Part shown: in pieces, positions 667-55,388 of the stretch
Layout of the letters: every line of letters begins with the position of its first letter
Position numbering within the stretch: position 1 is the first letter of the stretch
Assembly (NCBI GenBank): GCA_015488485.1
Contig: WFNR01000011.1
Span: forward strand, 1 to 64,000
Reading direction: 5' to 3'
Origin: Cyclobacteriaceae bacterium
GTDB taxonomy: Bacteria > Bacteroidota > Bacteroidia > Cytophagales > Cyclobacteriaceae
DNA length: 64,000 bases
Translations under genes and position numbers: made by a program
Notes under the pieces: model-generated
What the model saw: only the letters and a program-made list of their open reading frames with translations
Databases searched by the model: none
Told to the model about the DNA's origin: nothing

Positions 667-709
667 CAAAGATCTCATCCCCAGTCCCAAGGGCACCGGC
701 CATTACGCG

Positions 710-925
710 TTAATAACTACTCTGACGGGACAGCAGCCTACGCTGGAGGTAGTTGCCCTTACCCACCAGTTGTAGGATATAGTAGTCCTTGAAGTCTTCG
801 TAAGAAAGGTACTCCGGGCAACCCGAGCGGCAATCGGCCAGCAGCAGGGCCACTTGTTGCAGGTAGCGGCTGTAGGCAGCTATAATAGCAGCCTCATCCA
901 TTTTGGCTAGTTTATCACCTAACAT
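710..925 (-). CDS. Small protein of unknown function
   Basis: This 71-residue ORF is not recognised. It is predicted to be cytoplasmic and largely helical, with an acidic N-terminal half, two cysteines (CRSGC), and a basic C-terminus ending LLSRQSSY. It starts 9 bp after the stop of the secreted protein at 935-1360 on the same strand, which suggests a two-gene transcript. Its position just outside the repeat block and its small size make it uncertain as a gene, but the codon pattern is not obviously spurious. A later start at the ninth codon is possible. Confidence 0.45.
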   Translation of the reverse strand: MLGDKLAKMDEAAIIAAYSRYLQQVALLLADCRSGCPEYLSYEDFKDYYILQLVGKGNYLQRRLLSRQSSY

Positions 926-934
926 CGCTGCCCA

Positions 935-1360: not shown

Positions 1361-1454
1361 GATATTTTTCCTTTTGGTTCATGAGCAAATTTCAGCCTGT
1401 AGTAGCGCTTATTTATGCGGAAAAAACCTATTTTGGCGTTTAGGTAAATTACCT

Positions 1455-2402: not shown

Positions 2403-2432
2403 TAATCATCAAACCCTAAACCCCCTACTACC

Positions 2433-3257: not shown

Positions 3258-3382
3258 CGTAGATTTTAGCGAATTACCGGCAAAAATACAATGACCGACT
3301 GCCTTTTATTTGGCTGTAAAATGAACTATTTTAGTAGCCGTAAAGTTCTATTAGAAAAACACATTATACGAAAGAAAAAATC

Positions 3383-4669: not shown

Positions 4670-4691
4670 CACAGTTTTTCTGCCGTAAATC

Positions 4692-4735
4692 ATCACCCTG
4701 AATCGAAAAATGAGTAGATTCGGGGTGATTTTTTA
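4692..4735 (+). terminator. Rho-independent terminator after citrate synthase
   Basis: A 13-bp stem (ATCACCCTGAATC at 4692-4704 with GATTCGGGGTGAT at 4717-4729, one G-T pair) closes a 12-nt loop and runs into a T tract. It lies 22 bp after the gltA stop and just before the ACBP gene, which separates the two transcription units. Confidence 0.85.
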
Positions 4736-4746
4736 TATATGACATT

Positions 4747-5013
4747 ATGGACTTACAACAACAATTTGCCGAAGCCCGGAAGCAAGTCAATAATCTGAGT
4801 GCCCGCCCTACCAACGAAGAATTGCTGCTGCTTTATGCCTTGTACAAGCAGGCTACAGCAGGCGATGTACAGGGCGAAAGGCCGGGCGGTTTTGACTTTA
4901 AGGGCGCTGCCAAGTACGATGCCTGGGCAGCTCAAAAGGGCAAAACTGCCGAACAAGCTATGCAGGAATACATTGCGCTGGTGGAGAAGCTGGTGGCTAC
5001 CTACAACACCTGA
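4747..5013 (+). CDS. Acyl-CoA-binding protein (ACBP)
   Basis: The 88-residue protein matches the four-helix ACBP fold that sequesters long-chain acyl-CoA esters in the cytoplasm. Visible signatures are the N-terminal FAEARKQVNNL helix, LLLLYALYKQAT (containing the conserved YxxYKQAT-like stretch), GDVQGERPGGFDFKGAAKYDAWAA (the usual K..W motif) and the final helix AMQEYIALVEKL. The family is best known from eukaryotes and is less common in bacteria. It is the first gene of an operon with rsmE (3-bp gap) and the SpmAB fusion; functional linkage to them is not obvious. Confidence 0.93.
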   Translation: MDLQQQFAEARKQVNNLSARPTNEELLLLYALYKQATAGDVQGERPGGFDFKGAAKYDAWAAQKGKTAEQAMQEYIALVEKLVATYNT

Positions 5014-5016
5014 TAC

Positions 5017-5718
5017 ATGGAGGTCTTTTACCAACCTGATATCCTGAACGGTGTTCACCACCTCTCTGCCGATGAATCGAAGCACTGTATCAAGGTGCTG
5101 CGCCATGGTAAGGGCGACCGGATATACGTGGCTGATGGGCGCGGTACTTTGTTTGAAGTGCGCATAGAAGACCCCAACCCCAAAGCCTGTGTTTTTAGCA
5201 TTATCAGCCACAGCCGCAGGCCTGATAAAGGCTTTGCCGTAAGCATTGCCATAGCCCCTACTAAAAACAACGAGCGCACCGAGTGGTTTGTAGAAAAAGC
5301 CATTGAGTTGGGTATTGACGAAATCAATTTTTATTTTGGCCGCCATTCGGAACGCAAGAAAATGAATATGGAACGCCTGCACAAAAAAGCGGTAGCCGCC
5401 ATGAAGCAGTCGGAGCAGTTTATTTTACCGGCCATGAAACTGTACGACAGCTTTGCCGACTGCCTGGCCGCCACTCCGGCCGACCGGCAGCGTTTTATTG
5501 CCCATGTGGACCCCAGCCACCCCTATCACCTGATGGATATGGCGGAAAAAGGTGGTGCCTATACCGTGTTTATCGGGCCGGAAGGCGACTTTGCCGAAGA
5601 TGAGCTGGTGGCGGCTTTTGAGGCCGGTTTTACCAAGGTAAGCCTGGGCCCCAACCGCCTGCGCACCGAAACGGCCGGCCTGGTGGCCTGCCACATCCTG
5701 AACCTGATAAACCGCTGA
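5017..5718 (+). CDS. rsmE: 16S rRNA (uracil-1498-N3)-methyltransferase RsmE
   Basis: It methylates U1498 of 16S rRNA using S-adenosylmethionine. The 233-residue protein has the PUA-like N-terminal domain (FYQPDILNGVHHLSADESKHCIKVLRHGKGD) and a C-terminal SPOUT domain with the knot signatures FIGPEGDFAEDE and SLGPNRLRTETAGL. It follows the ACBP gene by 3 bp and precedes the SpmAB gene by 1 bp, indicating translational coupling within one operon. Confidence 0.95.
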   Translation: MEVFYQPDILNGVHHLSADESKHCIKVLRHGKGDRIYVADGRGTLFEVRIEDPNPKACVFSIISHSRRPDKGFAVSIAIAPTKNNERTEWFVEKAIELGIDEINFYFGRHSERKKMNMERLHKKAVAAMKQSEQFILPAMKLYDSFADCLAATPADRQRFIAHVDPSHPYHLMDMAEKGGAYTVFIGPEGDFAEDELVAAFEAGFTKVSLGPNRLRTETAGLVACHILNLINR

Positions 5719-5719
5719 T

Positions 5720-6952
5720 ATGGCACTCAATTACATCTGGGTCGGTTTCTTTCTCATTGCCTTTGCCATCGGGCTGGTAAGGCTGATTTTTATGGGTGAT
5801 ACGGAGATCTTTCCAGCCATGTTCAACAATGTAATGGACATGGCCAAGACCGGTTTCGACATCTCGCTCGGCCTTACCGGTGCCATGACCCTGTGGCTGG
5901 GCATTATGAAAATAGGCGAAAAAGGCGGCATCGTGCATATTTTTTATAAACTCACCGGGCCGCTGCTACGCAGGCTGTTTCCTTCGCTGCCGCCTGAGAG
6001 CAGCGCCTTTGCCCCGATGATCATGAACGTATCGGCCAATATGATGGGTCTTGACAACGCAGCCACCCCCCTCGGCCTGCAGGCCATGAAAGAAATGCAA
6101 AAGGTAAATCCGCACCCCGACACCGCTTCCGATGCCCAGATTATGTTTCTGGTGCTCAACACCTCGGGGCTTACTATCTTGCCAATCAATGTAATGGTAA
6201 TACGCGCCCAGATGGGCGCAGCCGACCCGTCCGATATCTTTATTCCCACCCTACTGGCTACTTACTTTGCCACCCTGGCCGGTTTGATTATCGTGTCTAT
6301 TTACCAGCGGATAAATCTGTTCAACAAAGTAATCATAGCCTACCTGGGTAGCCTCACAGCCTTTATCATGGGGCTGATCTGGTACCTGAGCACTTTGAGC
6401 AAAAGCGAGATAGCCGTTTTCTCTTCGGTAGCCAGCAACTTCATCCTGTTCAGCACCATTATCTTTTTTATTATCCTGGCCATGCGGCAAAAGCAAAATG
6501 TGTACGAAGCGTTTATCGAAGGTGCCAAAGAGGGTTTCGGTATTGCCGTTACCATTATACCCTACCTGGTGGCCATGCTGGTAGCCATAGGCGCTTTCCG
6601 GGCTTCCGGTGCGCTCGATTACCTCACCGATGGGGTGGCCGCTTTCTTTCATTTGCTCGGCATCAACACCGACTTCGTGCCTTCGTTGCCCACTGCTTTT
6701 ATGCGGCCGCTAAGCGGTAGCGGAGCACGCGGTATGATGGTGGAAACGATTAATGCCTATGGGGTCGATTCGTTTGCCGGACGGCTGGCCAGCGTGATGC
6801 AGGGTACCACCGAAACCACCTTTTATGTGATAGCCGTTTATTTCGGGGCAGTGAACATCCGCAAGACACGCTATGCCATCACTTGCGGCCTCTTTGCCGA
6901 TATGGTGGGGTTGATAGCAGCCATCCTGCTGTCCTATTTGTTCTTTCACTAA
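5720..6952 (+). CDS. SpmA-SpmB fusion, nucleoside-recognition (Gate) domain membrane protein
   Basis: The 410-residue polytopic membrane protein fuses two Gate domains. The N-terminal half is SpmA-like (MIMNVSANMMGLDNAATPLG) and the C-terminal half is SpmB-like (AFIEGAKEGFGIAVTIIPYL, then MRPLSGSGARGMM and MQGTTETTFYVIAVYFGAV). In Bacillus these are two spore maturation proteins; here they are a single polypeptide in an organism with no sporulation genes in view. The domains resemble nucleoside transporter gates, so transport of an unknown solute is an inference. It is the last gene of the ACBP-rsmE operon. Confidence 0.9.
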   Translation: MALNYIWVGFFLIAFAIGLVRLIFMGDTEIFPAMFNNVMDMAKTGFDISLGLTGAMTLWLGIMKIGEKGGIVHIFYKLTGPLLRRLFPSLPPESSAFAPMIMNVSANMMGLDNAATPLGLQAMKEMQKVNPHPDTASDAQIMFLVLNTSGLTILPINVMVIRAQMGAADPSDIFIPTLLATYFATLAGLIIVSIYQRINLFNKVIIAYLGSLTAFIMGLIWYLSTLSKSEIAVFSSVASNFILFSTIIFFIILAMRQKQNVYEAFIEGAKEGFGIAVTIIPYLVAMLVAIGAFRASGALDYLTDGVAAFFHLLGINTDFVPSLPTAFMRPLSGSGARGMMVETINAYGVDSFAGRLASVMQGTTETTFYVIAVYFGAVNIRKTRYAITCGLFADMVGLIAAILLSYLFFH

Positions 6953-7101
6953 ACAAGCTTAAAAGGGAATGTTTTACATAATCGCATATTCAATTATGAT
7001 ATCAACAAAAATTTATTTATCTATCTAAATTTCAATTACTTAAATCAAAGTAATAAAAGTTTGAATTTAATCATTGATATACCCTTAATCAACCTGCACC
7101 T

Positions 7102-8190
7102 ATGACACTTCCTACCGGTCGCTATCGCTCACTTGATGTTTTCAGAGGCCTGACCATCGCTATGATGATACTGGTAAACACCCCCGGCAGTTGGCAGCAT
7201 ATCTACGCACCGCTGCGCCATGCCGAGTGGCACGGCTACACTCCTACCGATCTGGTCTTCCCGTTTTTTCTGGTGGCCGTAGGGCTGTCAATGAGTTTTG
7301 TTTTGCCCAGGTACCGGGCGCGGGGGAACAAGGCTTTTTACAGCAAGGTGATAAGACGTGTGCTGCTTATCTTTTTTATCGGGCTGGCGCTTACGGCCTT
7401 CCCCTTCTACAACAAAGACTACAGCCAATTGCGTATCCTGGGGGTGCTGCAGCGCATTGCCCTGGCCTACGGCCTGGCGGCTGTCTGGGTTTACCACCTG
7501 CGGCAGGTACGCCTGCTTATCATCACGTCCTTGCTGGTACTGGTAGGCTACTGGCTGCTGCTCTGGCTGGCCGGTGGCCCCGACCCCTACTCGCTTACCC
7601 ACAACCTGCCGCGCCAGCTCGACCTGCTGGTGCTGGGCGCCAACCACATGTGGCACGGTCATGGCCTTGCTTTCGACCCCGAGGGGCTGCTCAGCACCTT
7701 TCCGGCCGCGGTATCGGTAGTGAGCGGCTATCTGCTCGGCCTGCTTATTCAGCAAACCAAGCGGCCGGCTCCGGTGTGGCTGGCCGGTGTCCTGCTGCTG
7801 GCAGCCGGCTATCTGTGGAGCCTGGTTATGCCGATTAACAAATCATTGTGGACCAGCAGCTATGTGCTGGTGTCATCGGGCATTGCGGCCCTGGTGCTGG
7901 GTGTGCTGATCTATCTGATAGACATCAGGGGGTTGACCGGCTGGGCCAAACCTTTTGAAATCTTCGGCATGAATCCGCTGGCTGTCTTTATCTTGTCGAT
8001 ACTCTGGGTGAAAATTTATTTTATGATTCACATTGGTGACCGCAATATGTACGGCTGGCTTTACCACACCGTATTTGAGCCGATCGGCAACCCTACATTC
8101 GGCTCACTGCTGTTTGCCTTGTTTCACGTAGCCGGTTGCTGGCTGGTAGCCTGGCTGCTATACCGTAAACAGATAGTGATTAAAGTGTGA
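7102..8190 (+). CDS. NagX/HGSNAT-like membrane acyltransferase (DUF5009 family)
   Basis: The 362-residue protein has about ten hydrophobic segments and the hallmarks of the heparan-alpha-glucosaminide N-acetyltransferase-like family: the start RSLDVFRGLTIAMMILVNTPG, WHGYTPTDLVFPFFLVAVG, a histidine-rich loop MWHGHG, and FDPEGLLSTFPAAVSV. Relatives acetylate amino sugars across the membrane using acetyl-CoA; the substrate here is unknown. A 149-bp AT-rich gap precedes it with no perfect promoter consensus. It converges with the Crp/Fnr gene, with only 7 bp between stops. Confidence 0.88.
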   Translation: MTLPTGRYRSLDVFRGLTIAMMILVNTPGSWQHIYAPLRHAEWHGYTPTDLVFPFFLVAVGLSMSFVLPRYRARGNKAFYSKVIRRVLLIFFIGLALTAFPFYNKDYSQLRILGVLQRIALAYGLAAVWVYHLRQVRLLIITSLLVLVGYWLLLWLAGGPDPYSLTHNLPRQLDLLVLGANHMWHGHGLAFDPEGLLSTFPAAVSVVSGYLLGLLIQQTKRPAPVWLAGVLLLAAGYLWSLVMPINKSLWTSSYVLVSSGIAALVLGVLIYLIDIRGLTGWAKPFEIFGMNPLAVFILSILWVKIYFMIHIGDRNMYGWLYHTVFEPIGNPTFGSLLFALFHVAGCWLVAWLLYRKQIVIKV

Positions 8191-8197
8191 AAGGGGG

Positions 8198-8908
8198 CTA
8201 ATAAATACCTCCAATACGCTGCAACGCCTTCAGGTCTTTGATGATAATCTTGCGGCCGTTGGTTTTGATAAGCTCTTCTTCCTTAAAATCATGAATCACC
8301 CTGATCAGTGTTTCAGTGGCCGTGCCCACCATATTGGCCAGGGCTTCGCGGGTCAGGTTGATTTCAGCCATCTCCTCCTCCCCTTGCGGGTTGTTGCGCG
8401 CATATACCGAGTTGAGCAGCACCAGGGTAGCTGCAGTGCGCTCACGCACCGGCTTCTGGGCGATATCCGTCACTACATTGGTTAAGGAGATCACCTCTTT
8501 CGAGAGATCAGTAATCAGGCGCTTGTTGAGCACCTTGTCATTTTGAAATGATTTGAGAAATTGCTCACGGGGAATATGGCAGGCCACCACTTCTTCCAGG
8601 GCTTCTACGGATACATGATAGAGCGAATCGCTGAGCATGGCCCGGTAACCGACCAGATCCCCGTCTTTGAGGATAGCCGTAATATGCTCCTTGCCCTGCT
8701 GGCCAAGCTTAAAAACCTTTACCTTACCCGACTTAATACAATAAACGCCCAACGGTCGTGTACCTTCCTGGATCAAACGCTGCCCTTTTTTGTACAGGTT
8801 ACAGGTTTTGCTCATATCGAGCAGCTCCAGGGTCTCATCATTAACCCCTGCCAGCTTTCCGTGGTAGCGTGTTTTGCATTCGCGGCAGTGTGGGAATAAA
8901 TCAGGCAT
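8198..8908 (-). CDS. Crp/Fnr family transcriptional regulator
   Basis: The 236-residue protein has an N-terminal cyclic-nucleotide-binding-type beta roll (KKGQRLIQEGTRPLGVYCIKSGKVKV), a dimerisation helix and a winged helix-turn-helix. The recognition helix region GTATETLIRVIHDF keeps the Glu and Arg (ETLIR) that contact the TGA core in Crp and Fnr. Cysteines lie at 8, 11, 36, 57 and 110; C110 aligns with the central Fe-S ligand of Fnr, but the third N-terminal Fnr cysteine is missing, so an Fe-S sensor is only a possibility. The desaturase gene lies upstream on the same strand; a matching palindrome lies in its promoter. Confidence 0.93.
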   Translation of the reverse strand: MPDLFPHCRECKTRYHGKLAGVNDETLELLDMSKTCNLYKKGQRLIQEGTRPLGVYCIKSGKVKVFKLGQQGKEHITAILKDGDLVGYRAMLSDSLYHVSVEALEEVVACHIPREQFLKSFQNDKVLNKRLITDLSKEVISLTNVVTDIAQKPVRERTAATLVLLNSVYARNNPQGEEEMAEINLTREALANMVGTATETLIRVIHDFKEEELIKTNGRKIIIKDLKALQRIGGIY

Positions 8909-9962: not shown

Positions 9963-10604
9963 ATGTATGAAAAATTGTTAGCCTTACAGGAATTCATCAG
10001 CCAGCCTTGGCCCTGGTGGATGGGTGCCGTGGTTATCGGCTCCACGGTTTTTATCCTGTTGTTCTTCGATAAAGAGTTTGGTCTGTCGGCCAACCTGCGC
10101 ATCATGTGTGCAGCCGATGGGGCCGGAGACTATGCCGATTTCTTCGATTTTGACTGGAGCAAGCAGGGTTGGAACCTGATGATCGCCCTGGGAGCCCTTT
10201 TCGGGGGGTATATTGCCGCCAATTATTTCGGGGGTGATTTTCAGGCGCATGTCAGCCCGGCTACGGTAGAAACGCTCAACCAGATTGCCGGCAAGGATAT
10301 TCTGGAATATGGCAACGTACCCATTGTACCCGGCACCGATGTTATTCACCCCAGCGTTCCGGAGTTCTGGGATATCTACTCCTGGCGTTCACTCTTTACC
10401 CTAAGAGGATTTATCATCATTGTAGTAGGCGGCTTTTTGGTAGGCTTTGGCGCCCGCTATGCCGGTGGATGTACATCCGGGCACGCTATCTCCGGATTGG
10501 CCGACCTGCAGTTGCCTTCCTTTGTAGCAGTACTGGGCTTCTTTATCGGTGGGTTGATCATGACCTGGTTTATATTGCCCTACATCTTAAGAATCGGTTT
10601 CTAA
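9963..10604 (+). CDS. YeeE/YedE family transporter, N-terminal half protein
   Basis: The 213-residue membrane protein belongs to the YeeE/YedE (TsuA-like, DUF395) family, whose characterised members take up thiosulfate through conserved cysteines. The signature GFGARYAGGCTSGHAISGLA with its cysteine is present near the C-terminus, and several transmembrane segments surround it. Single-chain homologues are about twice as long; here the second half is the separate gene at 10623, 18 bp downstream, so the two chains probably form one transporter. Import of thiosulfate or another reduced sulfur compound is inferred from the family. Confidence 0.9.
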   Translation: MYEKLLALQEFISQPWPWWMGAVVIGSTVFILLFFDKEFGLSANLRIMCAADGAGDYADFFDFDWSKQGWNLMIALGALFGGYIAANYFGGDFQAHVSPATVETLNQIAGKDILEYGNVPIVPGTDVIHPSVPEFWDIYSWRSLFTLRGFIIIVVGGFLVGFGARYAGGCTSGHAISGLADLQLPSFVAVLGFFIGGLIMTWFILPYILRIGF

Positions 10605-40881: not shown

Positions 40882-41766
40882 CTATGCAAAGCTGATACCC
40901 AGCAACCGCCTGATGATAGGGGTTACCAGTATCTCCATAGCCAGAAACATTTTGGGGCCCGGCACCACAATGGTATTTCTACGCGAAATAAAAGAGCCTT
41001 CGATCATGCCTTTCAAATACAGCAGGTCGATATCGTATTTCAGGATAAGCTCTTTTTTGATGCGGATTACCACCAGGCTTTCATCCATGGTTGGAATATC
41101 ACGGGCAATAAACGGGTTGGAGGTATCCACGGTAGGCACACGCTGAAAATTAATATGGGTGCGCGAAAACTGCGGAGTAATATAGTCCACATAGTCATGG
41201 ATACGCTGCTTGATGGCCTCCACCACCGCCTCGGTGCTATAGCCGCGTTTCTGGCGGTCGCGCTGGATTTTCTGTATCCACTCCAGGTTGATGATGGGTA
41301 CCACCCCAATCAGCAAGTCCACAAAGGGCGCCACCTCGGGCACACCTCCATGCAACCCCTCGTAAAACAGAATATCCGAATCTTCATTGATCTCTTCCCA
41401 GGGAGTGAAGGTGCCCGGCTTCTGCCCCCATTTTTCGGCTTCCTCTTCAGAATGCAAGTAGAATCTACGCTTCCCTTTGCCTGTTTCACGATAGGTCCTG
41501 AATAAGTTAGCCAATTCATCAAAAAGATTAGCCTCGGCACTGAAGTGACTCAGCCGCTTGCCCTTAGCAGCGTATTCTTCCACCTTCTTTTTCATCTCTT
41601 CGCGGTCGTACTTATGGAAGCTATCACCCTCAATCATAATGGCTTTGAGGCCTTCGCGCACAATCACATCGCCAAAGGCAGCTTTAACCGTGCTGGTGCC
41701 GGCTCCGGAAGAACCGGTAATGGCGATAACTGGATGGTGCCCAATGGCAGATGATTTAGGTCCCAT
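40882..41766 (-). CDS. prk: Phosphoribulokinase (bacterial class I type)
   Basis: It phosphorylates ribulose 5-phosphate to ribulose 1,5-bisphosphate, the RuBisCO substrate, and with RuBisCO defines the Calvin cycle. The 294-residue length and sequence fit the octameric proteobacterial-type enzyme. The P-loop is ITGSSGAGTST (residues 16-26), followed by IEGDSFHKYDREEM, FYEGLHGGVPE, and IQRDRQKRGYS. It is the last gene of the operon, 5 bp after cbbX, and is followed by a strong terminator. Confidence 0.97.
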   Translation of the reverse strand: MGPKSSAIGHHPVIAITGSSGAGTSTVKAAFGDVIVREGLKAIMIEGDSFHKYDREEMKKKVEEYAAKGKRLSHFSAEANLFDELANLFRTYRETGKGKRRFYLHSEEEAEKWGQKPGTFTPWEEINEDSDILFYEGLHGGVPEVAPFVDLLIGVVPIINLEWIQKIQRDRQKRGYSTEAVVEAIKQRIHDYVDYITPQFSRTHINFQRVPTVDTSNPFIARDIPTMDESLVVIRIKKELILKYDIDLLYLKGMIEGSFISRRNTIVVPGPKMFLAMEILVTPIIRRLLGISFA

Positions 41767-41771
41767 TTTTT

Positions 41772-42686
41772 CTATTCTTTTTGGTTGGTTGAATCGGTTG
41801 ATTTTAACACCCGGCTGGCAGCTATATCCTCCTCTATTACGGTACTGAGGTCATCTGCACTCAAATCACGGTTTTGTTTAAACAACCGGTTGGCTTGCCG
41901 CAAAATCGCCCTGTCGAGGGCATTGCGTATAGACCTGGCATTGGCAAAATGCGGTTGATTTCTACGTGCAGCAATGTATTTTTTCATAATCTGCTCGGCA
42001 CTTTTATCGAACCGGTAGTTTTGCTCTTCCAACATTTTACGGGCTATTTGTAGCAACTCATCATCTGTATAATCAGGAAAATCAATATGATGTGCAATGC
42101 GTGAGCGAAAGCCCGGGTTGGAGGTAAAAAACCTGTCCATCTTGTCGGCATAGCCGGCCAAAATCACCACCAGATCATCCCGGTTGTTTTCCATAATCTG
42201 CAATAGTATTTCTATGGCTTCCTGACCATAATCACGTTCATTATCCGGCCTGTACAGATAATAAGCCTCATCGATAAACAGCACTCCCCCCATGGCTTTT
42301 TTGATCATTTCCTTGGTTTTGGGAGCAGTATGGCCGATATACTGGCCTACCAGATCATCACGGGTTACACTTACCAGATGACCTTTACGCACATAGCCGA
42401 GCCGGTGCAGCAAGGCTGCCATACGCATGGCCACTGTGGTCTTGCCCGTACCGGGATTACCCGTAAAACTCATATGCAATGAAGGCTTGGCGGTGGTAAG
42501 CGCCATCTCTTCGCGCGCTTTATTGACCATCAACAGAGCTGCTATCTCCCTGATGCGGGTCTTAACCGGCTGCAAACCAATAAGGTCACGATCCAGCTCA
42601 TCGAGCACTTCCTTTACACCGGATTCCTCAAAGGCTTGCTGCAGGTTATAGCTTTCGGGTATCTTTTTGCTTTCTTCTTCCAACAT
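41772..42686 (-). CDS. cbbX: Red-type RuBisCO activase CbbX (AAA+ ATPase)
   Basis: CbbX is a hexameric AAA+ remodeller that frees inhibited red-type RuBisCO by pulling on the C-terminal tail of the large subunit. The 304-residue protein has Walker A G76-NPGTGK82-TT, the pore loop Y116-I-G, Walker B LFIDE140 and the sensor/arginine region [12 protein letters not shown] to [15 protein letters not shown]. The partner CbbL has the extended tail such an activase needs. It lies between cbbS and prk. Confidence 0.97.
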
Positions 42687-42715
42687 AATTTTTACAAGCT
42701 AATAGCTATGAATCA

Positions 42716-43138
42716 CTAATAACGCTCACCTGCCGGCTTATCGGTAGCGTAGCTATGGGTTGTATAGCGAATCTTTCTGTCATCAACCTCTTGGCGCTCC
42801 AGCCTGAAACCTTTTTCCTCACCTTTAGGCCGGTTTACAATAAAGGACAACCTGATAGATTCCCAACCATGCGAATTATCGAAAGCAGTAAGACGTATAT
42901 AATGATTGTCGCCATAAACTTTGCGGCATTCATTGAGTTCATACATCACACCTGCAGCATCTTTTACATCAAACATGGGCAGCCCCCACATTTCCCAGTA
43001 AGTATTGCGCGGATGCGGGTCATCGGTAAATTCCAGGTTCACGGCCCAACCGTTGTCTATACAATATTGTACTTGTTTGCTGATCTGCTCATCAGTGAGG
43101 TCGGGCAAGTATGAGAATGTTCCTTGTGTCAGTTTCAT
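42716..43138 (-). CDS. cbbS: RuBisCO small subunit, red form I
   Basis: The 140-residue protein starts [26 protein letters not shown] and contains [12 protein letters not shown] and [14 protein letters not shown], typical of red-type CbbS. The C-terminal extension ([20 protein letters not shown]) corresponds to the beta-hairpin that lines the central pore in red-type enzymes. It lies 40 bp after cbbL and 29 bp before cbbX. Confidence 0.97.
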
Positions 43139-43178
43139 AATTTATCTTGTTTTATTTTATTGTTAATCAATTCTTTAA

Positions 43179-44651
<1,473 letters not shown>

Positions 44652-44656
44652 TTATT

Positions 44657-45715
44657 TTATTTCTGTTCCAGTTCACCGGAAGCATAGCGCTGAGCCATAT
44701 CTTCCAGCGAGATAGGTTTTATTTTGCTGGCATTGCCTGCTGTACCGAAGGCCTCGAAGCGCTCCTCGCAGAGCTCCTGCATTTTATCAGTACCCGGCTT
44801 CAATATCTTGCGGGGGTCAAACTCCTGGGGATTTTCGGTGATCACCCTGCGCATCTGGCCCGATATGGCCATGCGGCAATCGGTATCGATGTTTACCTTG
44901 CGCACCCCGTGTTTGATGCCCTTTACAATTTCTTCTACCGGTACACCATAAGTCTGCGGCATCTCTCCCCCGTACTTGTTGATGATATCCTGCAGTTCCT
45001 GCGGCACCGAGCTGGAGCCATGCATCACCATGTGTACGGTAGGCATTTTCTCGTGAATGGCCTTTACCACGTCAATGGCCAGAATATCGCCATCGGGCTT
45101 GCGGGTGAACTTATAGGCGCCATGTGAGGTACCAATGGCTACCGCCAGGGCATCTACCTGGGTTTGCTTTACAAAGTCATAGGCCTGGTCGGGGTCGGTA
45201 AGCAATTGCTCCTTGCTCAGCTTGCCTTCAAAACCGTGGCCATCCTCCTTATCCCCTTCTCCGGTCTCCAGCGAACCCAGGCAACCCAGCTCCCCTTCTA
45301 CCGAGGCACCCACCGAATGGGCCATCTCAGATACCCGCTGGGTGATATCCACATTGTATTCGTAGGAGGCCACCGTTTTGGCATCTTCTTCCAGCGAGCC
45401 ATCCATCATTACACTGGTAAAATTGTTGCGGATGGCCGTCAGGCAGGTAGTGTAGTTGTTGCCATGATCCTGATGCAGCACAATGGGTATTTCGGGGTAC
45501 ATCTCCACGGCTGCATTTACCATGTGGCGGATAAAAATATCTCCGGCATAGGAGCGTGCCCCGCGGCTGGCCTGCAAAATCACCGGTGAGTCGGTTTTTT
45601 TGGCGGCCCGCATAATCGCCTGAATCTGCTCCAGGTTGTTGATGTTGAAAGCCGGCACGCCATAGCCGTATTCGGCTGCGTGGTCGAGCAATTGTCTGAG
45701 GTTAATAAGTGCCAT
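44657..45715 (-). CDS. fba: Class II fructose-bisphosphate aldolase (Calvin cycle subtype)
   Basis: The 352-residue zinc enzyme makes fructose 1,6-bisphosphate and probably sedoheptulose 1,7-bisphosphate from triose and erythrose phosphates. Metal and catalytic motifs include HQDHGN (H81, D83, H84), [34 protein letters not shown] and [11 protein letters not shown]. This layout matches aldolases found in cbb operons. It lies between glpX and cbbL with gaps of 20 and 29 bp. Confidence 0.96.
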
Positions 45716-45735
45716 ATTGTTTAGGTTTAAGTTGA

Positions 45736-46758
45736 TTAAATATTTTCCAATCCCAGTTTGTCCACCTGGTCGCGGTTGGCGAAGTCCATCGGCCGCTTGA
45801 GCTGGTGAATACCCTTGATATAGCGCACCGAGCCGGTAAGGGCGCGGGCCACTATGGAGTGCGTGGTAACCCCCTGGGTACGATCGAAGTGCACGCCTTC
45901 CAGAAAGGAGCCTTCGGTGATGCCGGTGGCGGCAAAAAAGCCGTCTTCCGCATTGATCAGCTTGTCGAGGGTGAGCACTTCGCTCAAATCCACATTATTC
46001 TCCTTTAGCCTGGCAATCTCCTCCGGCAATTGCGGGGCGCGCATGCCCTGCATGCCCCCGCCCAGGGCCTTTACCGCCACAGCGCTTATCACCCCTTCCG
46101 GGGTGCCGCCAATGCCCATAAGCACATCCACACCGGTACCCGGTATGGCGGCCATCAGGGCGCCCATCACATCGCCATCGGTATGCAGGGTGATGCGTGC
46201 CCCGGCCGCCCGTATCTCAGCCATGAGCTCACGGTGACGCGGCTTGTCCAGCATAAACACTGTCAGGTCTTGCACCTTGCGCTCCAGCGCCCTGGCAATC
46301 GCTTGCAGGTTGGCCGTGGGCGATTGGGTGATATCTATCACGTCTTTCGCCCTGCGATCTACCACCAGTTTGTTCATATAAAAAGAGTCACCCGGGTTCC
46401 ACATGCTGCCTTTTTCGGCCATGGCCATTACGGCAATCGAGTTCGGGCGCCCCAGGGCCAGCAGGTTGGTGCCCTCCACCGGATCCACCGCCACGTCCAC
46501 TTCCGCACCTTGCCCGCTACCCACTTGTTCGCCATTGTACAGCATGGGGGCTTCATCCTTTTCGCCCTCACCTATCACCACCGTACCGCGGATGTCCACC
46601 GTATCGAGCACCGCCCGCATAGCATCTACGGCAGCCTGGTCACCGGCTTCCTTATCACCTGTGCCCATGTAACGCGCGGCCGAGATGGCGGCAGCTTCGG
46701 TAACCCGCACCATCTCCATGGCCAGGTTGCGATCGGGTTTTATGCTGTTGTTGCTCAT
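45736..46758 (-). CDS. glpX: Class II fructose-1,6-bisphosphatase (GlpX type)
   Basis: The 340-residue enzyme dephosphorylates fructose 1,6-bisphosphate; in cyanobacteria GlpX-type proteins also hydrolyse sedoheptulose 1,7-bisphosphate, and both steps are needed here. Typical motifs are [53 protein letters not shown] and [14 protein letters not shown]. Many proteobacterial cbb operons carry the unrelated class I enzyme (CbbF) instead. It starts 1 bp after the transketolase stop. Confidence 0.95.
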
Positions 46759-46759
46759 T

Positions 46760-48769
46760 TTATTGCTTTTCGTTAATCAGTATATTTTTCATTACCTGCA
46801 GGGTAAGTTCCTTTACCCTTTCGGCTGTCAGGCCCAGTTCACGATAGATTGTCTTATAGGGTGCCGAGGCGCCAAAGCGATCGAGGCCGAGCACGGCACC
46901 ATCGAGGCCTACGTAGCGCTCCCAGCCCCAGGTAGCGCCCGCCTCTACAGCCACGCGCACGCGCACGTTGGGCGGCAGCACCTCCTGGCGGTAGGCAGCA
47001 TCCTGCTTGTCGAAGATATCGGTAGACGGCATGGACACCACCCGCACGCCTATGCCCTGGTCATTAAGCAGCTTCCTGGCTTCCAGCGCTATCTCCAATT
47101 CCGAGCCGGAGGCCAGCAGGATAGCGGTAAAATCGTCATCCTCACAAAAGATATAGCCACCCCTTGCCGCCAGGGCTGCCGGGGCATAGCCCTGGGCTGC
47201 GCGGTCGTACACCGGTAGCTTCTGCCGGGTGAGCACCAAGCTGGTGGGGCCATCGGTGTTAGCCAGGGCCAGTTGCCAGCCGGCAATGGTTTCGTTGGCA
47301 TCGGCCGGGCGAAAGACCATCATGTTGGGCATAGCCCTGAGTGATGACAGGTGCTCCACCGGCTGGTGGGTAGGTCCGTCTTCGCCCAGCCCGATGGAGT
47401 CGTGCGTAAGAACGAATACCACCCGTAATCCCATGAGGGCTGCCATGCGCATAGCCGAGCGCATGTAATCGCTGAATACGAAAAAGGTACCGCCATAAGG
47501 GATAACCCCACCGTGCAGTGCCAGGCCATTCATAATGGCGCCCATGCCGAACTCACGCACACCATAGTGGATATAGCGACCGCTGCGGTTGTCCGGACTA
47601 TAAGAGGTCTCCCCCTTGGGATAGGTGTTGTTGGAGGGCGTCAGGTCGGCCGAGCCACCCAGCAGCGAAGGCAGTTGGGCAGCCAGTTGGTCGAGGATTG
47701 CGCCCGATGCCGAGCGGGTGGCCAGAGCCTGGCCAGGCTCGAAGTCGGCTACCTGCAGGGCACTTACATCTTCCTTGCCCAACTGCGCAAACACTTGTGC
47801 CTCTTGCGGGTACGCTTCCTGATAGCGGGCCAGCAACCGGTTCCAATCCTCCTCTGCCGCTTTGCCTTTGTCCAGGGCTTCCCGGAAAAAAGCCCGTACG
47901 TCATCAGGGATATAGAATTCTTCGTCCGGCAGGCCCAGCGCAGCTTTACTCAGCGTTACCTCCTCTTCACCCAATGGCGAACCATGCACATGCGAGGTGC
48001 CGGCTTTGTTGGGACTGCCTTTTCCAATAATGGTTTGGCAGGCTATCAGCGAGGGCTGCCCGGTAGCCTGGCGGGCCGTTTCGAGGGCAGCCGCCACGGC
48101 CGCCATATCATGGCCATCTACCTTTTGCGTGTGCCAGCCATAGGCTGCAAAGCGTTGCAGCACATTTTCCGAAAAGGACAATTCGGTTTTGCCGTCAATG
48201 GTGATGTTGTTGTCATCGTAAAGGACAATGAGTTTACCCAGCTTATTATGGCCGGCAAAAGAAGCCACTTCATGTGAGATGCCTTCTTCCAGATCGCCAT
48301 CGCCCACCATGCAATAAGTAAAGTGGTCCACAACAGGCATTTCCGGCTTGTTGAAGCGGGCGGCCAGCGATGATTCGGCCAGCGCCATACCCACAGCATT
48401 GGCCAGCCCCTGCCCCAGCGGTCCCGTGGTGGTTTCTACACCCGGGGTATCGCCATATTCCGGATGTCCGGGGGTATGGCTGCCCCACTGACGGAAATTC
48501 TGCAGCTCGGAGAGTGGCAGGTCGTAGCCGCTGAGGTGCAACAGGCTGTAGAGCAGCATGCTGCCATGCCCGCCCGACAGCACGAAGCGGTCGCGGTTAA
48601 ACCAACCAGGGTTAGCCGGATTATGGGTAAGAAACTGCGTCCAAAGTACAGTGGCAAAATCGGCCGCTCCCATGGGCAGACCGGGGTGGCCCGAGTTGGC
48701 GCGCTGCACACCGTCCATGCTCAGGCCACGTACTACATTAGCTGCTTTTTGTAAAAGTTCCAGGTTCAT
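46760..48769 (-). CDS. tkt: Transketolase
   Basis: The 669-residue thiamine-diphosphate enzyme transfers two-carbon units in the regenerative phase of the Calvin cycle. It has [37 protein letters not shown], the cofactor motif [26 protein letters not shown] and [20 protein letters not shown]. The start overlaps the cbbY stop by 4 bp. In a cbb operon it corresponds to cbbT. Confidence 0.97.
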
Positions 48770-49488
48770 TTTTTGGTTGATATTTGTTGAGGTTGAAATT
48801 TTTCTGCCAGAATACCGGCCACATCCACTTCGGCCCAGGAGGTGGCCACCTGCAGGGCGCCTGTAAAGTCTTCGTGAGCAGTGTAGTCGTTGGTAACTAC
48901 TATTGTGGGAATACCGGCCTTACGGGCAGCTTTGAAACCGGCTGCCGAGTCTTCAAATACCAGACAATCTGCAGCCGGCAAACCCAGTATGTCCAGACAT
49001 TTTTCATAAAGCATGCCCTCCTCACCGGTTTTCTGCCCCGATTCCTTGCCCAATACCGGTTGAAAGACATCCTTATAAGCCGGCAACTTGGTAACCAGCA
49101 GTTGGTGGATTTGCTTTTCATGCGATGTAGAAACAATGGCCAGTCTTACACCCGCCTCTACCAAAGTGGCAATCACCGCTTCTACACCGGGTCGCAAGCG
49201 GGTTTGATGCACATATTTATTGATATACAATTCTTTCTTGATAGGGATAAAGGCCTCGACATAGGCTTCCGTATCGGCCGCTCCGTAACCCATGTTGCGC
49301 AGTACATGCCGCAAGCGATTGGCATTGCCCTGCATCTGCTCCAGCAACTGGCGAAACTCCGGCCACTCCCACTGCAAAGGCAGGCCCAAGATACGGAAGG
49401 CCTCGTTACAGGCAGGCAAATGGCCGTAACGCTCCGAATCGGCTATGGTGCCGTCCACGTCAAATATGATAGCTGCCGGTTTTTGCAT
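48766..49488 (-). CDS. cbbY: CbbY-type HAD phosphatase
   Basis: The 240-residue HAD hydrolase has the motif [16 protein letters not shown] (D10, D12), a helical cap and [22 protein letters not shown]. CbbY in red-type RuBisCO operons removes xylulose 1,5-bisphosphate, an inhibitory side product of RuBisCO; a phosphoglycolate phosphatase role is an alternative but the sequence and context favour CbbY. It is the first gene of the operon and overlaps transketolase by 4 bp. Confidence 0.92.
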
Positions 49489-49590
49489 AACCGGCCTTAG
49501 TACGAGAGTCGTGCCAAAGGCAAATTAATTTATCTATCTTATTGATTTTCAGTAGTTAAAATTTTAAACCCTATAATTCATCCGCTTATT

Positions 49591-49745
49591 ATGTGTCAAT
49601 TATGGCGCATTTATCTTAAACATAGCCTGCTTAGCTGTCAATATATTTTTTATATATTGATTATCAATTACTTAACTGTGACAATAATGGCAATTATAAA
49701 TTTATTCCATGTCCTGACAGTTAAAATATGTGTCAAAAATGACAC
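49591..49745. promoter_or_regulatory. Regulatory region between the cbb operon and the A2M gene
   Basis: The 344-bp divergent gap (49489-49832) is AT-rich and has no supported gene. TGWCAAW direct repeats start at 49594, 49636, 49679 and 49731, that is at spacings of 42, 43 and 52 bp, close to whole helical turns. Inverted repeats are TCAATATAT/ATATATTGA (49638-49660), ATTGATTATCAAT (49656-49668), TTAACTGT/ACAGTTAA (49672-49724) and GTGTCA-AAAA-TGACAC (49730-49745). These look like regulator sites for the cbb operon, the A2M gene or both. No exact -7 consensus was found on either strand. Confidence 0.5.
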
Positions 49746-49832
49746 TAAAGGTATCTTCAGGAAGAATCAAAGACATTCCTTTTACATACAGGCAAAATAT
49801 TTATAATTTAGACGGCCAAGCAAATATCAATT

Positions 49833-52800
49833 ATGAACCGTCCTCTTAATTTCACCTTCTTGACAAAAACATCTGCATTTTTACTAACATACCTACCCTT
49901 CCTGCTATTGTGGTTTACTGCCTGCCAAACAGCAGACGATTACCGGCAACCCGGCTATCAACAGCGCTTCAGCCCCTATATCAGTTCGCACACCAACGGC
50001 CTGGTATCGGTAGCCGGCCCTATTAAGCTGGTTTTTAGCAAACGACCGGCCGAGTCGTTGTATAAGGGAGAAATACCAGCGGACATTATTACTACCCAAC
50101 CGGCCAGCAAGGGCAAGCTATGGTGGCAAAATGAGCTTACCCTGGTATATGAGCCTGAGGAATGGCTGCAAAGAGGGCAAACCTATCTGGTAAAAGTTGA
50201 TTTACAAGCCCTGTTTCCCGATGAAGACCTGCCCGCCCCGGTATATCGCTTTGAGATTACCACCCCGGAGCAAAAATTTTCCGTTAACATAGAGAACCTG
50301 CAAATGAGCGAAACCGGCAAGGGTGGTGAGCTGTTTCTAACCGGCATATTTACCACAGCCGATGTTACCGATATTGCCAAAGTAAAACAGGTTTTACAAG
50401 CAAAATACGACCAGCCGCTCACAGTTAGCTGGGATGAGGCCGGTGATAACAAAACTTTTACTTTCAACATCAAGGGCATCGCACGCAGCAATAAACCCCG
50501 CCAGCTTGTGCTTGATTTTGACGGCAAGGCTATTGGCGCCCACCAGAAGCTTAGTCGCCAAATAACTATACCCGCCCGTGATGAGTACCGTATATTATCG
50601 GTACGCCTGGTCAACAACCGGGAGCGTTACATTGCCGTGCACTTCAGCAGCCGGCTGGATGCCCGGCAAAACCTGGACGGCCTGGTGAGCATCGGTGACG
50701 AACCGGTAACACCCCGGTTGGTAATTGATAACAATGTATTGCGTATCTACCCGGCCAGCGACCTGCAGGGTGAGCAGCGATTATTTATCAGCAAGGCGGT
50801 GGTAAACACTGCAGGGAGACAGCTACCTGAAGATTATCATACTCTTATACAATTCAGCCACATAAAACCGCAAGTGCGTCTGCTGGAAGCTAAAAACAAG
50901 GTAATCTTACCCAGCAGCAACGGACTGGTATTTCCTTTTGCGGCTGCCGGCCTGCAAGCAGTAGATGTGATTGTCTATAAAATTTACCCGCACAACATCC
51001 TGCAATATTTGCAAGTAAATGGCCTGGGAGGTGACAACGAACTATACCGGGTGGCCAAACCGATTGTCAAGAAAACCATTGACCTGAACAGCAGCGGGCC
51101 GGTCAACCTGCACAAGTGGAACCGTTTTACCCTCGCCCTGAGTGAAATCATCAATACCGAACCGGGGGCCTTGTACCGGGTAATGATTGGTTTCAGCAAA
51201 AAGCACAGCCTGTATGCCTGCGGCAACCCCGAAGATGAGCAAACACTGGCAGATGAACCCCGGGATGAGGACTATTGGGATATGTATGAACAGTACTATC
51301 CGCCTTATTTTGACTGGAGCAAAAGGGACGACCCCTGCTCGCGTTCGTACTATGGCAGGCGCAGGTCTGTTTATCAAACCCTATTGGCCTCCGACCTGGG
51401 GTTGATAGCTAAAAAAGGCAGTGATGATTATGTGCACATTTTCGTGACCAACCTGCTTAATACTCAACCGCTGTCGGGGGTAACGGTGCAGCTTTATAAT
51501 TTTCAGCAGGAGTTGCTCGGCAGTGGCACCACCGATGACAATGGCATGGCCGTATTGGCGGCTGCGGATGAACTTTTTGTAGTGGTGGCCGACTACAACG
51601 GTCAGGCAGGCTACCTGAAAGTAACCGATGGCGATGCCCTGTCGGTAAGCAATTTCGATGTAAGCGGCACCCAGGTACAACAAGGCCTCAAAGGGTTTAT
51701 CTACGGTGAGCGCGGTGTATGGCGCCCGGCCGATACGGTACATCTGGCTTTTATCCTGCAGCATGCTACCGCAGAGCTGCCTGCCGGGCATCCGGTGATT
51801 ATGAGGCTCTATAACCCCAGCGGCCAACTGCTGGCCCGCCAGGTAAGCCAGGCTGCCAGCGGCAATATCTATCGCTTTGACTTCCCTACCTCCGCCAGCG
51901 CCCCTACCGGCAACTGGCAGGCTGTGGCTAGTGTGGGTGGCGCCAGCTTCCGCAAGACGGTGAAGATTGAAACCATAAAACCCAACCGGCTGAAAATCAG
52001 CTTCCACCCTGACAAAGAGGCCTTTACCTATGCCGATGGCGCTATCACCGGTAATCTGGATGTACGCTGGCTAACCGGAGCCAATGCCGGCAACCTGAAA
52101 GTAGAATACGAAATGCTGGTGCGCCCGGCAAAGACCACCTTTAAAGACTTTCCGCTCTATACCTTCGATGACCGATCCCGTGAATTTTACAGTGAGCGGC
52201 AATTGGTGTACACAGGACACCTGAACGATGCCGGCCGCGCCAAAATCAGGATTGACATGAGAGAGGCCGTTAGCCAATCACCCGGCATGGTGCAAGCCAA
52301 CCTGTACGGCAAGGTATATGAGCCGGGCGGTGACTTCAGCATCAGCACTACTGCCATACCCTATTATCCGTACAGCAGCTTTGTAGGCCTGAAACTACCA
52401 GCAGGCGATAACCACGGTATGCTACTCACCGATCAGAATCACCGCGTGGATATCGTAACAGTAGATGCCAACGGCAAGCCGGTGAATCGCCAGGGCGTAA
52501 AGATAAATGTATATGAACTCGACTGGCGCTGGTGGTGGGACAACTCCTTTGAGGATGTGGGCAACTATATCAACAGCAACTACCAAAGCCCGGTACAGTC
52601 CGCCACGGTAAATACCGTAAACGGCCGGGCCACCTGGACATTGCGTATCAACAAACCGGCCTGGGGGCGCTATTATGTGCAGGTTACCGACCCCGTGTCG
52701 GGGCACTCGGCCGGCAAGGCGGTTTATATCGACTGGCCCGGGTGGGCAGGCAAAGCGCAGCGTGGCGAGTTGGACGGAGCCTCGATGCTGCAGTTTGAAA

Positions 52801-55388
52801 TAGCCAGGGAAAGCTATCAGGTAGGCAAAGAAATGGTGATAAAGATACCCAGCACACCGGGTAATCGCATACTGGTAAGTCTGGAAACGGGTAGTCGTAT
52901 CCTGCAATCGTTTTGGCAGGAAACCACAGCGCAACAAACAGTTGTCAAAATAAAGGCCACCCCTGAAATGGCACCCAATGTGTATGTGCATCTGACCATG
53001 CTGCAACCTCACGGCCAGCAACAAAACGACCTGCCGATACGTCTCTACGGCATCGCCTCAGTGAAAGTAGTGGAGCCTGCTTCGGTACTGCAACCCCTGC
53101 TAAAGGTGCCGGACAAGGTACGACCGGAGCAATCATTTAGTATTGAAGTAAAAGAGAAAGACGGACGCCCGATGAGCTATACCCTGGCGGTGGTTGACGA
53201 AGGTTTGCTGGATATCACCAATTACAAAACCCCTGATCCGTGGGCCCATTTTTATGCCCGTGAGGCCCTGGGGGTAAAAACCTGGGACATCTATGACGAT
53301 GTAATAGGCGCCTATGGCGGCTGGCTGGAGAGGCTACTGGCTATTGGCGGTGATGAGGAACTGAATGCTTTCGAACCCGAAAACACTACCAACCGCTTCA
53401 AACCGGTGGTCTTCTTCCTGGGGCCTTTCAGCCTGGCAGCCGGTAAAAGTGCCACCCATCATCTTACCCTGCCCCCCTACACCGGCCGGATTAAAACCAT
53501 GCTGGTGGCCGCCAATGATCAGGCTTACGGTCATACCGAGGCCACTACACTGGTCAAGCAGCCACTCATGCTGCTGGCCACCCTGCCACGCGTAGCCGGA
53601 CCGAATGAAAAAATCGTGCTACCGGTAAACGTATTTGCAGAAGAGGACAATATCAAAAATGTAAAGGTAAGTGTAGAAACCGATGATCATTTTACGGTAA
53701 TAGGCCAACCGGAAAAGACTGTCACTTTCACCAAAAGTGGTGATAAGCTGGTGACCTTCGCCTTGCAAACCGGAATGGCCACCGACACCGGCAGGGTTGT
53801 GGTTCGGGCGCGCAGTGGCAGCCAAAAAGCATCCTATGCCGTTGACCTAAGCATAATACCGCGCAATCCCCCGATTACCTATGTAGCGGATCAACTGCTG
53901 CAAGCCGGCACCAACTGGCAAACACACTACCAGCCGGCCGGTATTACCGGTCACAACAGGGCGGCCATTGAGCTGAGCAACCTGCCACCGCTTAATCTGG
54001 AAAAACGCCTGGGCTATCTGATCAACTACCCACACGGCTGTATCGAGCAAACCGTATCAGCCGCTTTTGCCCAGTTGTATCTGCCAAACCTGACAGAGAT
54101 AACTGCCAACCAGGCTGCCAGCATTGAACATCATATTACGGCTGCCATCAATAAGCTAAATGATTTTCAGGTATCTTCAGGCGGTTTTTCATACTGGCCC
54201 GGACAAAGTGCTGCCAATATTTGGGGCAGCAATTATGCCGGCCATTTTATGCTGGCTGCCGAAAAGGCCGGTTATGCCATACCTGCACATCTGCTGAATA
54301 ACTGGCTGAGCTTTCAACGACAAGAAGCACGCAACTGGCAGGCCGCCACCGATGCCGACAACGACCTGGCCCAGGCTTATCGCCTTTATACGCTGGCCCT
54401 GGCCGGCAAGCCAGAAATGGGCGCTATGAACCGGCTGCGCAAGCGTAGCGACCTAAGTGTTGCAGCCGCCTGGCGTCTTGCGCTGGCCTATGCCGTAGCC
54501 GGCTACGACAAGCAAGCCAAAGAACTGGTAACCAGTGTAATAGATAAACCCCTGTCGTCAGCCGATTATGATTTCTACACCTATGGCTCACCCCTGCGCG
54601 ACCGTGCCATGCAACTGGAGACTTTACTGACCCTTGGCCAGCAGCAGCAAGCCTATGAAATAATACTGGAAATAGCCAACGAACTTGCACAACCGGACAA
54701 GTGGCTTAGCACACAAACCACCGCCTATTGTCTGCTGGCTTTGAGCCAGGCTGCCGGACAGGGTATAGACAGCGAACCGCTGCAAGCCGAAATAAACATC
54801 AATGGCCGGGCAAGCACGGTAAGCAGCCAAAAGTACCTGTATCGTCTGATGCTCGAGTCACCCGACAAGCAGACCACCATCGAGGTCAGCAATACCGGCA
54901 GCGCTCCGCTGTTTGCCCGTTTGATCAGGTCGGGCATACCGCTGGAAGGCAGCGAGCAGGTCGTCAGCCGCAACCTCTTGATTAAAGTTGACTATACCGA
55001 TAACCGCGGCAACAGGATAGCGGTAAACAGCCTGCCACAGGGCACGAATTTCAAGGCTACGGTTACCGTTACCAATCCCGGAGGGCGTGGCCGCTACCGC
55101 GATATGGCCCTTACCCAGTTGTTTCCTGCCGGCTGGGAGATCGTCAATACCCGTCTGGACGGCAGCCGCGGCAGCTCTCTTGCCACCTATACCGACATCC
55201 GCGATGACCGTGTGATGCAGTATTTTGATCTGCCGGCAGGCAAGAGCATTACCTTTGAAGTACTGCTCAATGCCACCTACCAGGGGCGCTACTATCTGCC
55301 GGCCGTTACGGCTTCAGCCATGTATGATATCAGCGTATATGCCAGCATACCGGGACAATGGGTGGAAGTAACAGCCGGCAAAGATTGA
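49833..55388 (+). CDS. Bacterial alpha-2-macroglobulin family lipoprotein (YfhM-like)
   Basis: The 1851-residue protein has a lipoprotein signal (LLLWFTAC) and the multi-domain A2M architecture: repeated macroglobulin domains, an MG2/MG-like central part (GLKGFIYGERGVWRPADTVHL), and a thioester domain with the intact motif C1403-I-E-Q in YPHGCIEQTVS. It should trap proteases at the outer cell surface or periplasm by covalent capture after bait cleavage. It overlaps the PBP1C gene by 31 bp; this pair (yfhM-pbpC in E. coli) is thought to guard and repair the envelope. Confidence 0.95.
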   Translation: MNRPLNFTFLTKTSAFLLTYLPFLLLWFTACQTADDYRQPGYQQRFSPYISSHTNGLVSVAGPIKLVFSKRPAESLYKGEIPADIITTQPASKGKLWWQNELTLVYEPEEWLQRGQTYLVKVDLQALFPDEDLPAPVYRFEITTPEQKFSVNIENLQMSETGKGGELFLTGIFTTADVTDIAKVKQVLQAKYDQPLTVSWDEAGDNKTFTFNIKGIARSNKPRQLVLDFDGKAIGAHQKLSRQITIPARDEYRILSVRLVNNRERYIAVHFSSRLDARQNLDGLVSIGDEPVTPRLVIDNNVLRIYPASDLQGEQRLFISKAVVNTAGRQLPEDYHTLIQFSHIKPQVRLLEAKNKVILPSSNGLVFPFAAAGLQAVDVIVYKIYPHNILQYLQVNGLGGDNELYRVAKPIVKKTIDLNSSGPVNLHKWNRFTLALSEIINTEPGALYRVMIGFSKKHSLYACGNPEDEQTLADEPRDEDYWDMYEQYYPPYFDWSKRDDPCSRSYYGRRRSVYQTLLASDLGLIAKKGSDDYVHIFVTNLLNTQPLSGVTVQLYNFQQELLGSGTTDDNGMAVLAAADELFVVVADYNGQAGYLKVTDGDALSVSNFDVSGTQVQQGLKGFIYGERGVWRPADTVHLAFILQHATAELPAGHPVIMRLYNPSGQLLARQVSQAASGNIYRFDFPTSASAPTGNWQAVASVGGASFRKTVKIETIKPNRLKISFHPDKEAFTYADGAITGNLDVRWLTGANAGNLKVEYEMLVRPAKTTFKDFPLYTFDDRSREFYSERQLVYTGHLNDAGRAKIRIDMREAVSQSPGMVQANLYGKVYEPGGDFSISTTAIPYYPYSSFVGLKLPAGDNHGMLLTDQNHRVDIVTVDANGKPVNRQGVKINVYELDWRWWWDNSFEDVGNYINSNYQSPVQSATVNTVNGRATWTLRINKPAWGRYYVQVTDPVSGHSAGKAVYIDWPGWAGKAQRGELDGASMLQFEIARESYQVGKEMVIKIPSTPGNRILVSLETGSRILQSFWQETTAQQTVVKIKATPEMAPNVYVHLTMLQPHGQQQNDLPIRLYGIASVKVVEPASVLQPLLKVPDKVRPEQSFSIEVKEKDGRPMSYTLAVVDEGLLDITNYKTPDPWAHFYAREALGVKTWDIYDDVIGAYGGWLERLLAIGGDEELNAFEPENTTNRFKPVVFFLGPFSLAAGKSATHHLTLPPYTGRIKTMLVAANDQAYGHTEATTLVKQPLMLLATLPRVAGPNEKIVLPVNVFAEEDNIKNVKVSVETDDHFTVIGQPEKTVTFTKSGDKLVTFALQTGMATDTGRVVVRARSGSQKASYAVDLSIIPRNPPITYVADQLLQAGTNWQTHYQPAGITGHNRAAIELSNLPPLNLEKRLGYLINYPHGCIEQTVSAAFAQLYLPNLTEITANQAASIEHHITAAINKLNDFQVSSGGFSYWPGQSAANIWGSNYAGHFMLAAEKAGYAIPAHLLNNWLSFQRQEARNWQAATDADNDLAQAYRLYTLALAGKPEMGAMNRLRKRSDLSVAAAWRLALAYAVAGYDKQAKELVTSVIDKPLSSADYDFYTYGSPLRDRAMQLETLLTLGQQQQAYEIILEIANELAQPDKWLSTQTTAYCLLALSQAAGQGIDSEPLQAEININGRASTVSSQKYLYRLMLESPDKQTTIEVSNTGSAPLFARLIRSGIPLEGSEQVVSRNLLIKVDYTDNRGNRIAVNSLPQGTNFKATVTVTNPGGRGRYRDMALTQLFPAGWEIVNTRLDGSRGSSLATYTDIRDDRVMQYFDLPAGKSITFEVLLNATYQGRYYLPAVTASAMYDISVYASIPGQWVEVTAGKD

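Follow-up and report, generated by a model that had tools for sequence, protein, structure and literature searches.

The Calvin-cycle (cbb) operon described here is probably driven, in place of CbbR, by a sigma-54-dependent activator with a Rossmann-type N-terminal domain, for which three copies of a 16-bp dyad, GTGnCA-N4-TGnCAC, would serve as phased enhancers. The analysed window, which contains the operon, spans the opening 64 kb of contig C11 in a Bacteroidota assembly (G000; 3.17 Mb, approximately 95% complete). The same judgement, made jointly for the whole reading, makes the 344-bp gap ahead of its first gene (49489–49832; 30% G+C) the likely upstream control region. Dyads conserved in sequence and geometry are linked to the activator gene across genomes; RpoN is encoded and no CbbR is detectable.

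The cbb operon and its surroundings

The operon occupies the minus strand (40882–49488) in the order cbbY-tkt-glpX-fba-cbbL-cbbS-cbbX-prk. It opens with a cbbY-type HAD phosphatase (48766–49488), followed by transketolase (46760–48769), a glpX-type fructose-1,6-bisphosphatase (45736–46758), a class II fructose-bisphosphate aldolase (44657–45715), the large (43179–44627) and small (42716–43138) subunits of a red-type form I RuBisCO, a cbbX-type AAA+ RuBisCO activase (41772–42686) and phosphoribulokinase (40882–41766). Among the matches listed, CbbL shares 84–89% identity with alphaproteobacterial proteins. The divergent gene on the plus strand (49833–55388) encodes a bacterial alpha-2-macroglobulin, as the initial annotation had proposed, and is probably a bystander, because ffh occupies its place in a congener (G001). 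As a regulated target this gene was rejected, having no strong sigma-54 box on its strand and not lying beside the operon in G001. An Rfam search of 49300–50000 returned no RNA element match. Elsewhere in the window a Crp-family regulator gene (8198–8908) and a Sulf_transp gene (9963–10604) lie approximately 1 kb apart, with no tie to the cbb gap seen.

The lack of a cbbR gene adjoining the operon, recorded at the outset, was borne out, and none was found in the approximately 95% complete genome; a CbbR-like gene was present at 76 of 79 related alphaproteobacterial loci. A CbbR encoded elsewhere was rejected, as the LysR genes found were most like a katG-adjoining, OxyR-like LysR gene and shared approximately 22–31% identity with an alphaproteobacterial CbbR. 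LysR boxes of the ATAC-N7-GTAT type were represented by one 7/8 match in the G000 gap and none in relatives. RegA/PrrA, whose half-sites (GNGNC...GNCNC) looked alike, was set aside, with no ActR/PrrA/RegA ortholog above the NF033791 cut-off and no GCGNC-N5-GNCGC site.

Three 16-bp dyads in the gap

The four TGWCAAW motifs first described in the gap lie exactly at 49594, 49636, 49679 and 49731, in steps of 42, 43 and 52 bp; chance would give 0.14 copies for that strand (P = 0.0025 with both strands counted). As a conserved unit this motif did not survive comparison, being absent as such from relatives, where the 16-bp dyad is kept instead. Three of the four copies are half-sites of the dyad, and the other is a lone TGTCAAT (49636–49642, plus strand) outside any dyad, with no counterpart seen in G001. 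On the operon strand, the distal dyad 1 (GTGTCATTTTTGACAC, 49730–49745) is a 10/10 match, identical to the GTGTCA-AAAA-TGACAC palindrome noted earlier; it is centred 223.5 bp from the GG of the −24 element described below and its position is kept in G001. Dyad 2 (TTGCCATTATTGTCAC, 49678–49693; 9/10) is centred at 171.5 bp with an 8/10 counterpart in G001, and the proximal dyad 3 (GCGCCATAATTGACAC, 49593–49608; 9/10) at 86.5 bp with a 9/10 counterpart. Between dyads 2 and 3 an AT-rich block (49650–49668) contains the inverted repeat ATTGATTATCAAT together with AATCAATATATAA, which is IHF-like with one mismatch; a resembling block is present in G001, which faintly suggests a possible DNA bend site. 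Four inverted repeats had been counted in the gap. Six-base inverted repeats do fall into four groups, of which the three besides GTGTCA-AAAA-TGACAC are AT-rich and near chance, with 5 exact pairs compared with approximately 2 expected.

Dyads with at most one mismatch number three in the 64-kb window, all within the gap; 2.3 are expected over the whole 64 kb. Shuffling the gap does not yield the dyads, with 0.0013 expected per gap. When spacers of 0–15 bp were compared, an excess was seen for the 4-bp spacer only. As for a wider regulon, the remaining perfect dyads of G000 and G059 seem to fall within coding sequence; weaker targets with one mismatch may exist. For the dyad spacings (52, 85, 51, 85, 87, 138, 62, 86 and 150 bp, relatives included), phase coherence came to 0.62 with a helical repeat of 10.5 bp and to 0.78 with one of 10.7 bp; because G000 and G001 are not independent, this is no more than suggestive of helical phasing.

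The dyad in related genomes

The same cbb operon is present in G001, where ffh is the upstream neighbour, and in G059 (MAG ‘Bacteroidetes bacterium Dive96_bin3.134’). G000, G001 and G059 helped to define the motif and are therefore not independent tests; the motif had already been fixed when dyads were detected in G096, G786 and G728 and in the promoter of the G000 activator gene itself. A regulator other than CbbR, in a layout fitting cooperative phased binding, had been predicted, and conservation in relatives with the same operon agrees with this: the dyad steps are 85 and 52 bp in G000 and 85 and 51 bp in G001, despite the differing upstream neighbour, and the G059 gap contains one 10/10, one 9/10 and one 8/10 dyad. 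The dyad also precedes the cbb operons of G096, a genome from another family, and its congener G786 (dyads GTGTCACTTGTGTCAC and GTGTCATTTTTGTCAC), in which RuBisCO is of the green type of form I and 59–62% identical to the red one. At these loci (L165/L167 and L173) the phosphoribulokinase looks unlike that of the red-type operons, with the same activator adjoining. Across four gaps, 8 dyads of at least 9/10 were observed compared with 0.04 expected, and across six regions 13 compared with approximately 0.07.

In G728, which carries no RuBisCO, the stretch directly behind the activator gene contains a TTGGCAC box and three dyads, scoring 10/10, 9/10 and 10/10. The dyads thus track the activator, not RuBisCO. 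The G728 region (L174:11120–11829) lies between the activator gene and a gene for a 115-aa thioredoxin-like protein. None of 83 divergent-regulator gaps of alphaproteobacterial loci contained a dyad. Nine further loci for enhancer-binding proteins were compared in these genomes; eight had none, and L120 had two 9/10 matches in 3.5 kb. No dyads were found in front of the G001 hydrogenases, nor in the short stretch covered in G059. Hydrogenase operons were rejected as co-targets on these grounds; the G000 hydrogenase contig stops inside the small-subunit gene.

A candidate sigma-54 promoter

A sigma-54-type box, TTGGCACGACTCTCGTA (49501–49517, minus strand), has, relative to YTGGCACG-N4-TTGCW, a complete −24 element and a degenerate −12 element (GT for GC), with its TTGG 29 nt before the cbbY start. 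With a hand-made matrix, it was the sole match above 13 bits in the window, and it falls in an aligned block in G001. The distance from the sense TTGGC box to the start codon is 29 nt in G000, G001 and G096, 31 nt in G786, 51 nt in G059 (a GTG start assumed) and 95 nt in G728, so that in four of the five cbb genomes TTGG precedes the first gene by 29–31 nt. The −12 element reads GC in G096 and G786, GT in G000 and G001, GA in G059 and GG in G728; the G096 box is weak (P = 0.23).

The centre of the proximal dyad lies 86.5–134.5 bp from the GG across genomes, the 10/10 dyad being used for G096 and G059; one of the G059 dyads overlaps the −24 box there. The arrangement of several dyads approximately 80–300 bp upstream of the promoter box is that of enhancers of sigma-54 promoters. 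Given that −24 falls approximately 26 nt before the ATG in G000, the implied leader is approximately 2 nt and the mRNA would be nearly leaderless, placing an AAGG ribosome-binding-like sequence outside it.

A sigma-54 activator with a Rossmann domain

The activator consists of an N-terminal Rossmann domain of NAD-binding type, an AAA+ domain with a GAFTGA loop and a Fis-type HTH. Pfam matches were Sigma54_activat and HTH_8, the latter just below the cut-off in G001. GAFTGA is invariant across six activator orthologs and the HTH core is conserved. RpoN (PF04552) is encoded in G000, G001, G059 and G096, the four genomes tested. A search with the N-terminal domain gave three matches, one distant, in 395 Bacteroidota genomes and four matches, one weak, in 395 genomes of the class; the activator is encoded in approximately 1% of sampled Bacteroidota and in all five dyad-bearing cbb genomes. 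Profile comparison of the sensor domain with solved structures returned weak matches to acetaldehyde dehydrogenase (2e-5), DapB (6e-4) and Rex (5e-3). A GAGxGG glycine-rich loop and an acidic residue after β2 (VxD) are conserved, and by this sequence resemblance the domain is a putative NAD(H) sensor. In G413 (L166:6494–8329) a 611-aa protein also begins with this type of Rossmann domain, and a response-regulator-like gene comes next; the protein may be a sensor kinase and possibly represents another redox-sensor architecture.

The activator gene is close to the cbb genes in G059, G096 and G786, adjoining a phosphoglycolate phosphatase gene in G059 and G096, and away from the operon in G000 and G001. 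The G000 activator (G000:C153, 460 aa) is 52–53% identical to that of G059, and a 9/10 dyad lies 21 bp before its start codon. Behind its gene, at L150:2284–3922, come genes for a CopD-family protein and a multihaem cytochrome c. The G001 activator (G001:C248) is divergent from hypF. The G059 activator (463 aa) shares a contig with a NiFe hydrogenase and the phosphoglycolate phosphatase, and the cbb contig overlaps this preceding contig by 343 bp, 341 of them identical. Joining the two through this overlap, we infer the order hydrogenase, activator, gph, cbb across the contig joint. The L116 segment (179–8437) holds the NiFe hydrogenase, activator and phosphatase ahead of cbb, and hyp genes follow the operon in L004; by gene content, L116/L004 appears to be a compact island for H2-driven autotrophy in Bacteroidota. 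Genes for a canonical NiFe hydrogenase large subunit, a cytochrome-b-like protein and a maturation protease occur together in G000 (L159, G000:C177) and G001 (L160, G001:C271), making H2 oxidation likely in these congeners.

By protein identity alone, the G059 activator is nearer that of G096 (63%) than that of G000 (52%), whereas the G059 RuBisCO is 88% identical to that of G000. Because they point to different genomes, activator and RuBisCO seem to have had separate histories, with the motif retained.

Proposed mechanism and alternatives

In the proposed mechanism, the three GTGnCA-N4-TGnCAC dyads would act as enhancers approximately 85–225 bp upstream of the promoter, near helical phase. 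The protein binding them would be G000:C153, a sigma-54 enhancer-binding protein whose gene lies elsewhere in the genome. Once its Rossmann domain signals a suitable redox or metabolite state, with NAD(H) as the probable signal, the activator would assemble on the dyads and, through DNA looping, contact sigma-54 RNA polymerase at the TTGGCAC box before cbbY. Opening of the promoter would then turn the cbb operon on, with the Rossmann activator standing in for CbbR. We infer binding of the activator to the dyads from genetic linkage; the mechanism further predicts a sigma-54-dependent start site, NAD(H) as the ligand, and a protein that activates the operon instead of repressing it.

The Rossmann activator could instead bind the dyads while transcription of the operon begins at a Bacteroidota sigma-A promoter or another start, TTGGC being a further operator half-site near the start codon. 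This would accommodate a G059 box that is half of a 9/10 dyad, a −12 element that is degenerate in four of six genomes and an implied leader that is nearly absent. We regard it as unlikely, given TTGG at 29, 29, 29 and 31 nt in four cbb genomes, two with an unrelated RuBisCO lineage, GC at −12 in G096 and G786, the GAFTGA sigma-54 contact loop retained by the activator, and the G728 box 95 nt upstream, which leaves a normal leader. Coincidental conservation in these genomes of sites for an unlinked TetR, GntR, MarR or LysR regulator is less probable again. The dyads accompany the activator gene into the RuBisCO-less G728, one stands in the activator's own promoter in G000, and positions 85–285 bp upstream fit an enhancer better than a repressor site, while LysR and RegA sites and genes fail the tests above; on the other side, such families commonly use 16-bp dyad operators and the activator gene is not beside the operon in G000 and G001.

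Control of the Crp/Fnr type, to which the repeats had been attributed in the initial annotation, is very improbable. The window does contain a Crp-family gene (8198–8908) and the arms are TGTGA-like in places, but the 16-bp dyad, with its GTG..CAC arms, is offset in each half by one bp from the register of TGTGA-N6-TCACA, and neither that consensus nor TTGAT-N4-ATCAA occurs in the gap at one mismatch or fewer in G000, G001, G059 or G728. Chance repeats in AT-rich DNA can be all but dismissed: a G+C content of 30% and the AT-rich, near-chance nature of some inverted repeats would favour them, but dyads turn up in six regions from six genomes and are far scarcer in shuffled sequence.

Comparison with known systems

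The phased-enhancer reading has its closest parallel in NtrC/NifA-type systems, which likewise have several dyads (here 85–285 bp upstream) near helical phase, an activator with AAA+/GAFTGA and a Fis HTH, and RpoN. The NifA site is TGT-N10-ACA, and its arm geometry equals that of the GTG-N10-CAC found here. The sensor of such systems is a receiver, GAF or PAS domain, whereas here it is a Rossmann domain of NAD type; in further contrast, the apparent target is a Calvin-cycle operon and the −12 element is degenerate. CbbR (LysR) systems share upstream control through several sites, but here no CbbR was found and the dyads are not LysR boxes. Rex also uses an NAD(H)-type Rossmann domain in transcription control (the profile match being weak, E = 0.005), but is a repressor of another architecture, and its site, TTGTGAAW4TTCACAA (PMC2883068), differs from the dyad. 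RtcR fuses a CARF Rossmann domain to an AAA+ sigma-54 activator (PMC9650030). The fusion of a Rossmann-like sensor to such an activator is common to both, but CARF, which binds RtcAB, is a different Rossmann family from the domain here, which resembles DapB, acetaldehyde dehydrogenase and Rex. Within the literature searched, which took in few subscription journals, no paper was found on sigma-54 control of a cbb operon or on the Rossmann activator.

Activator and dyad accompany red-type RuBisCO operons and, as a separate pairing, green-type ones, so that one kind of regulator may have displaced CbbR on more than one occasion. We advance this tentatively, at slightly less than an even chance, together with the wider suggestion that, in a lineage of Bacteroidota, CO2 fixation is governed by a sigma-54 ATPase switch with a direct NAD(H) sensor. 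Carbon fixation may here be switched by a machine very unlike CbbR, with a rare regulator family marking Calvin-cycle operons in Bacteroidota. If so, horizontal transfer would have been followed by a rebuilding of control around an ATP-dependent sigma-54 switch that carries its own redox-type sensor, a concrete case of a transferred pathway being rewired and of autotrophy being coupled to reductant supply.
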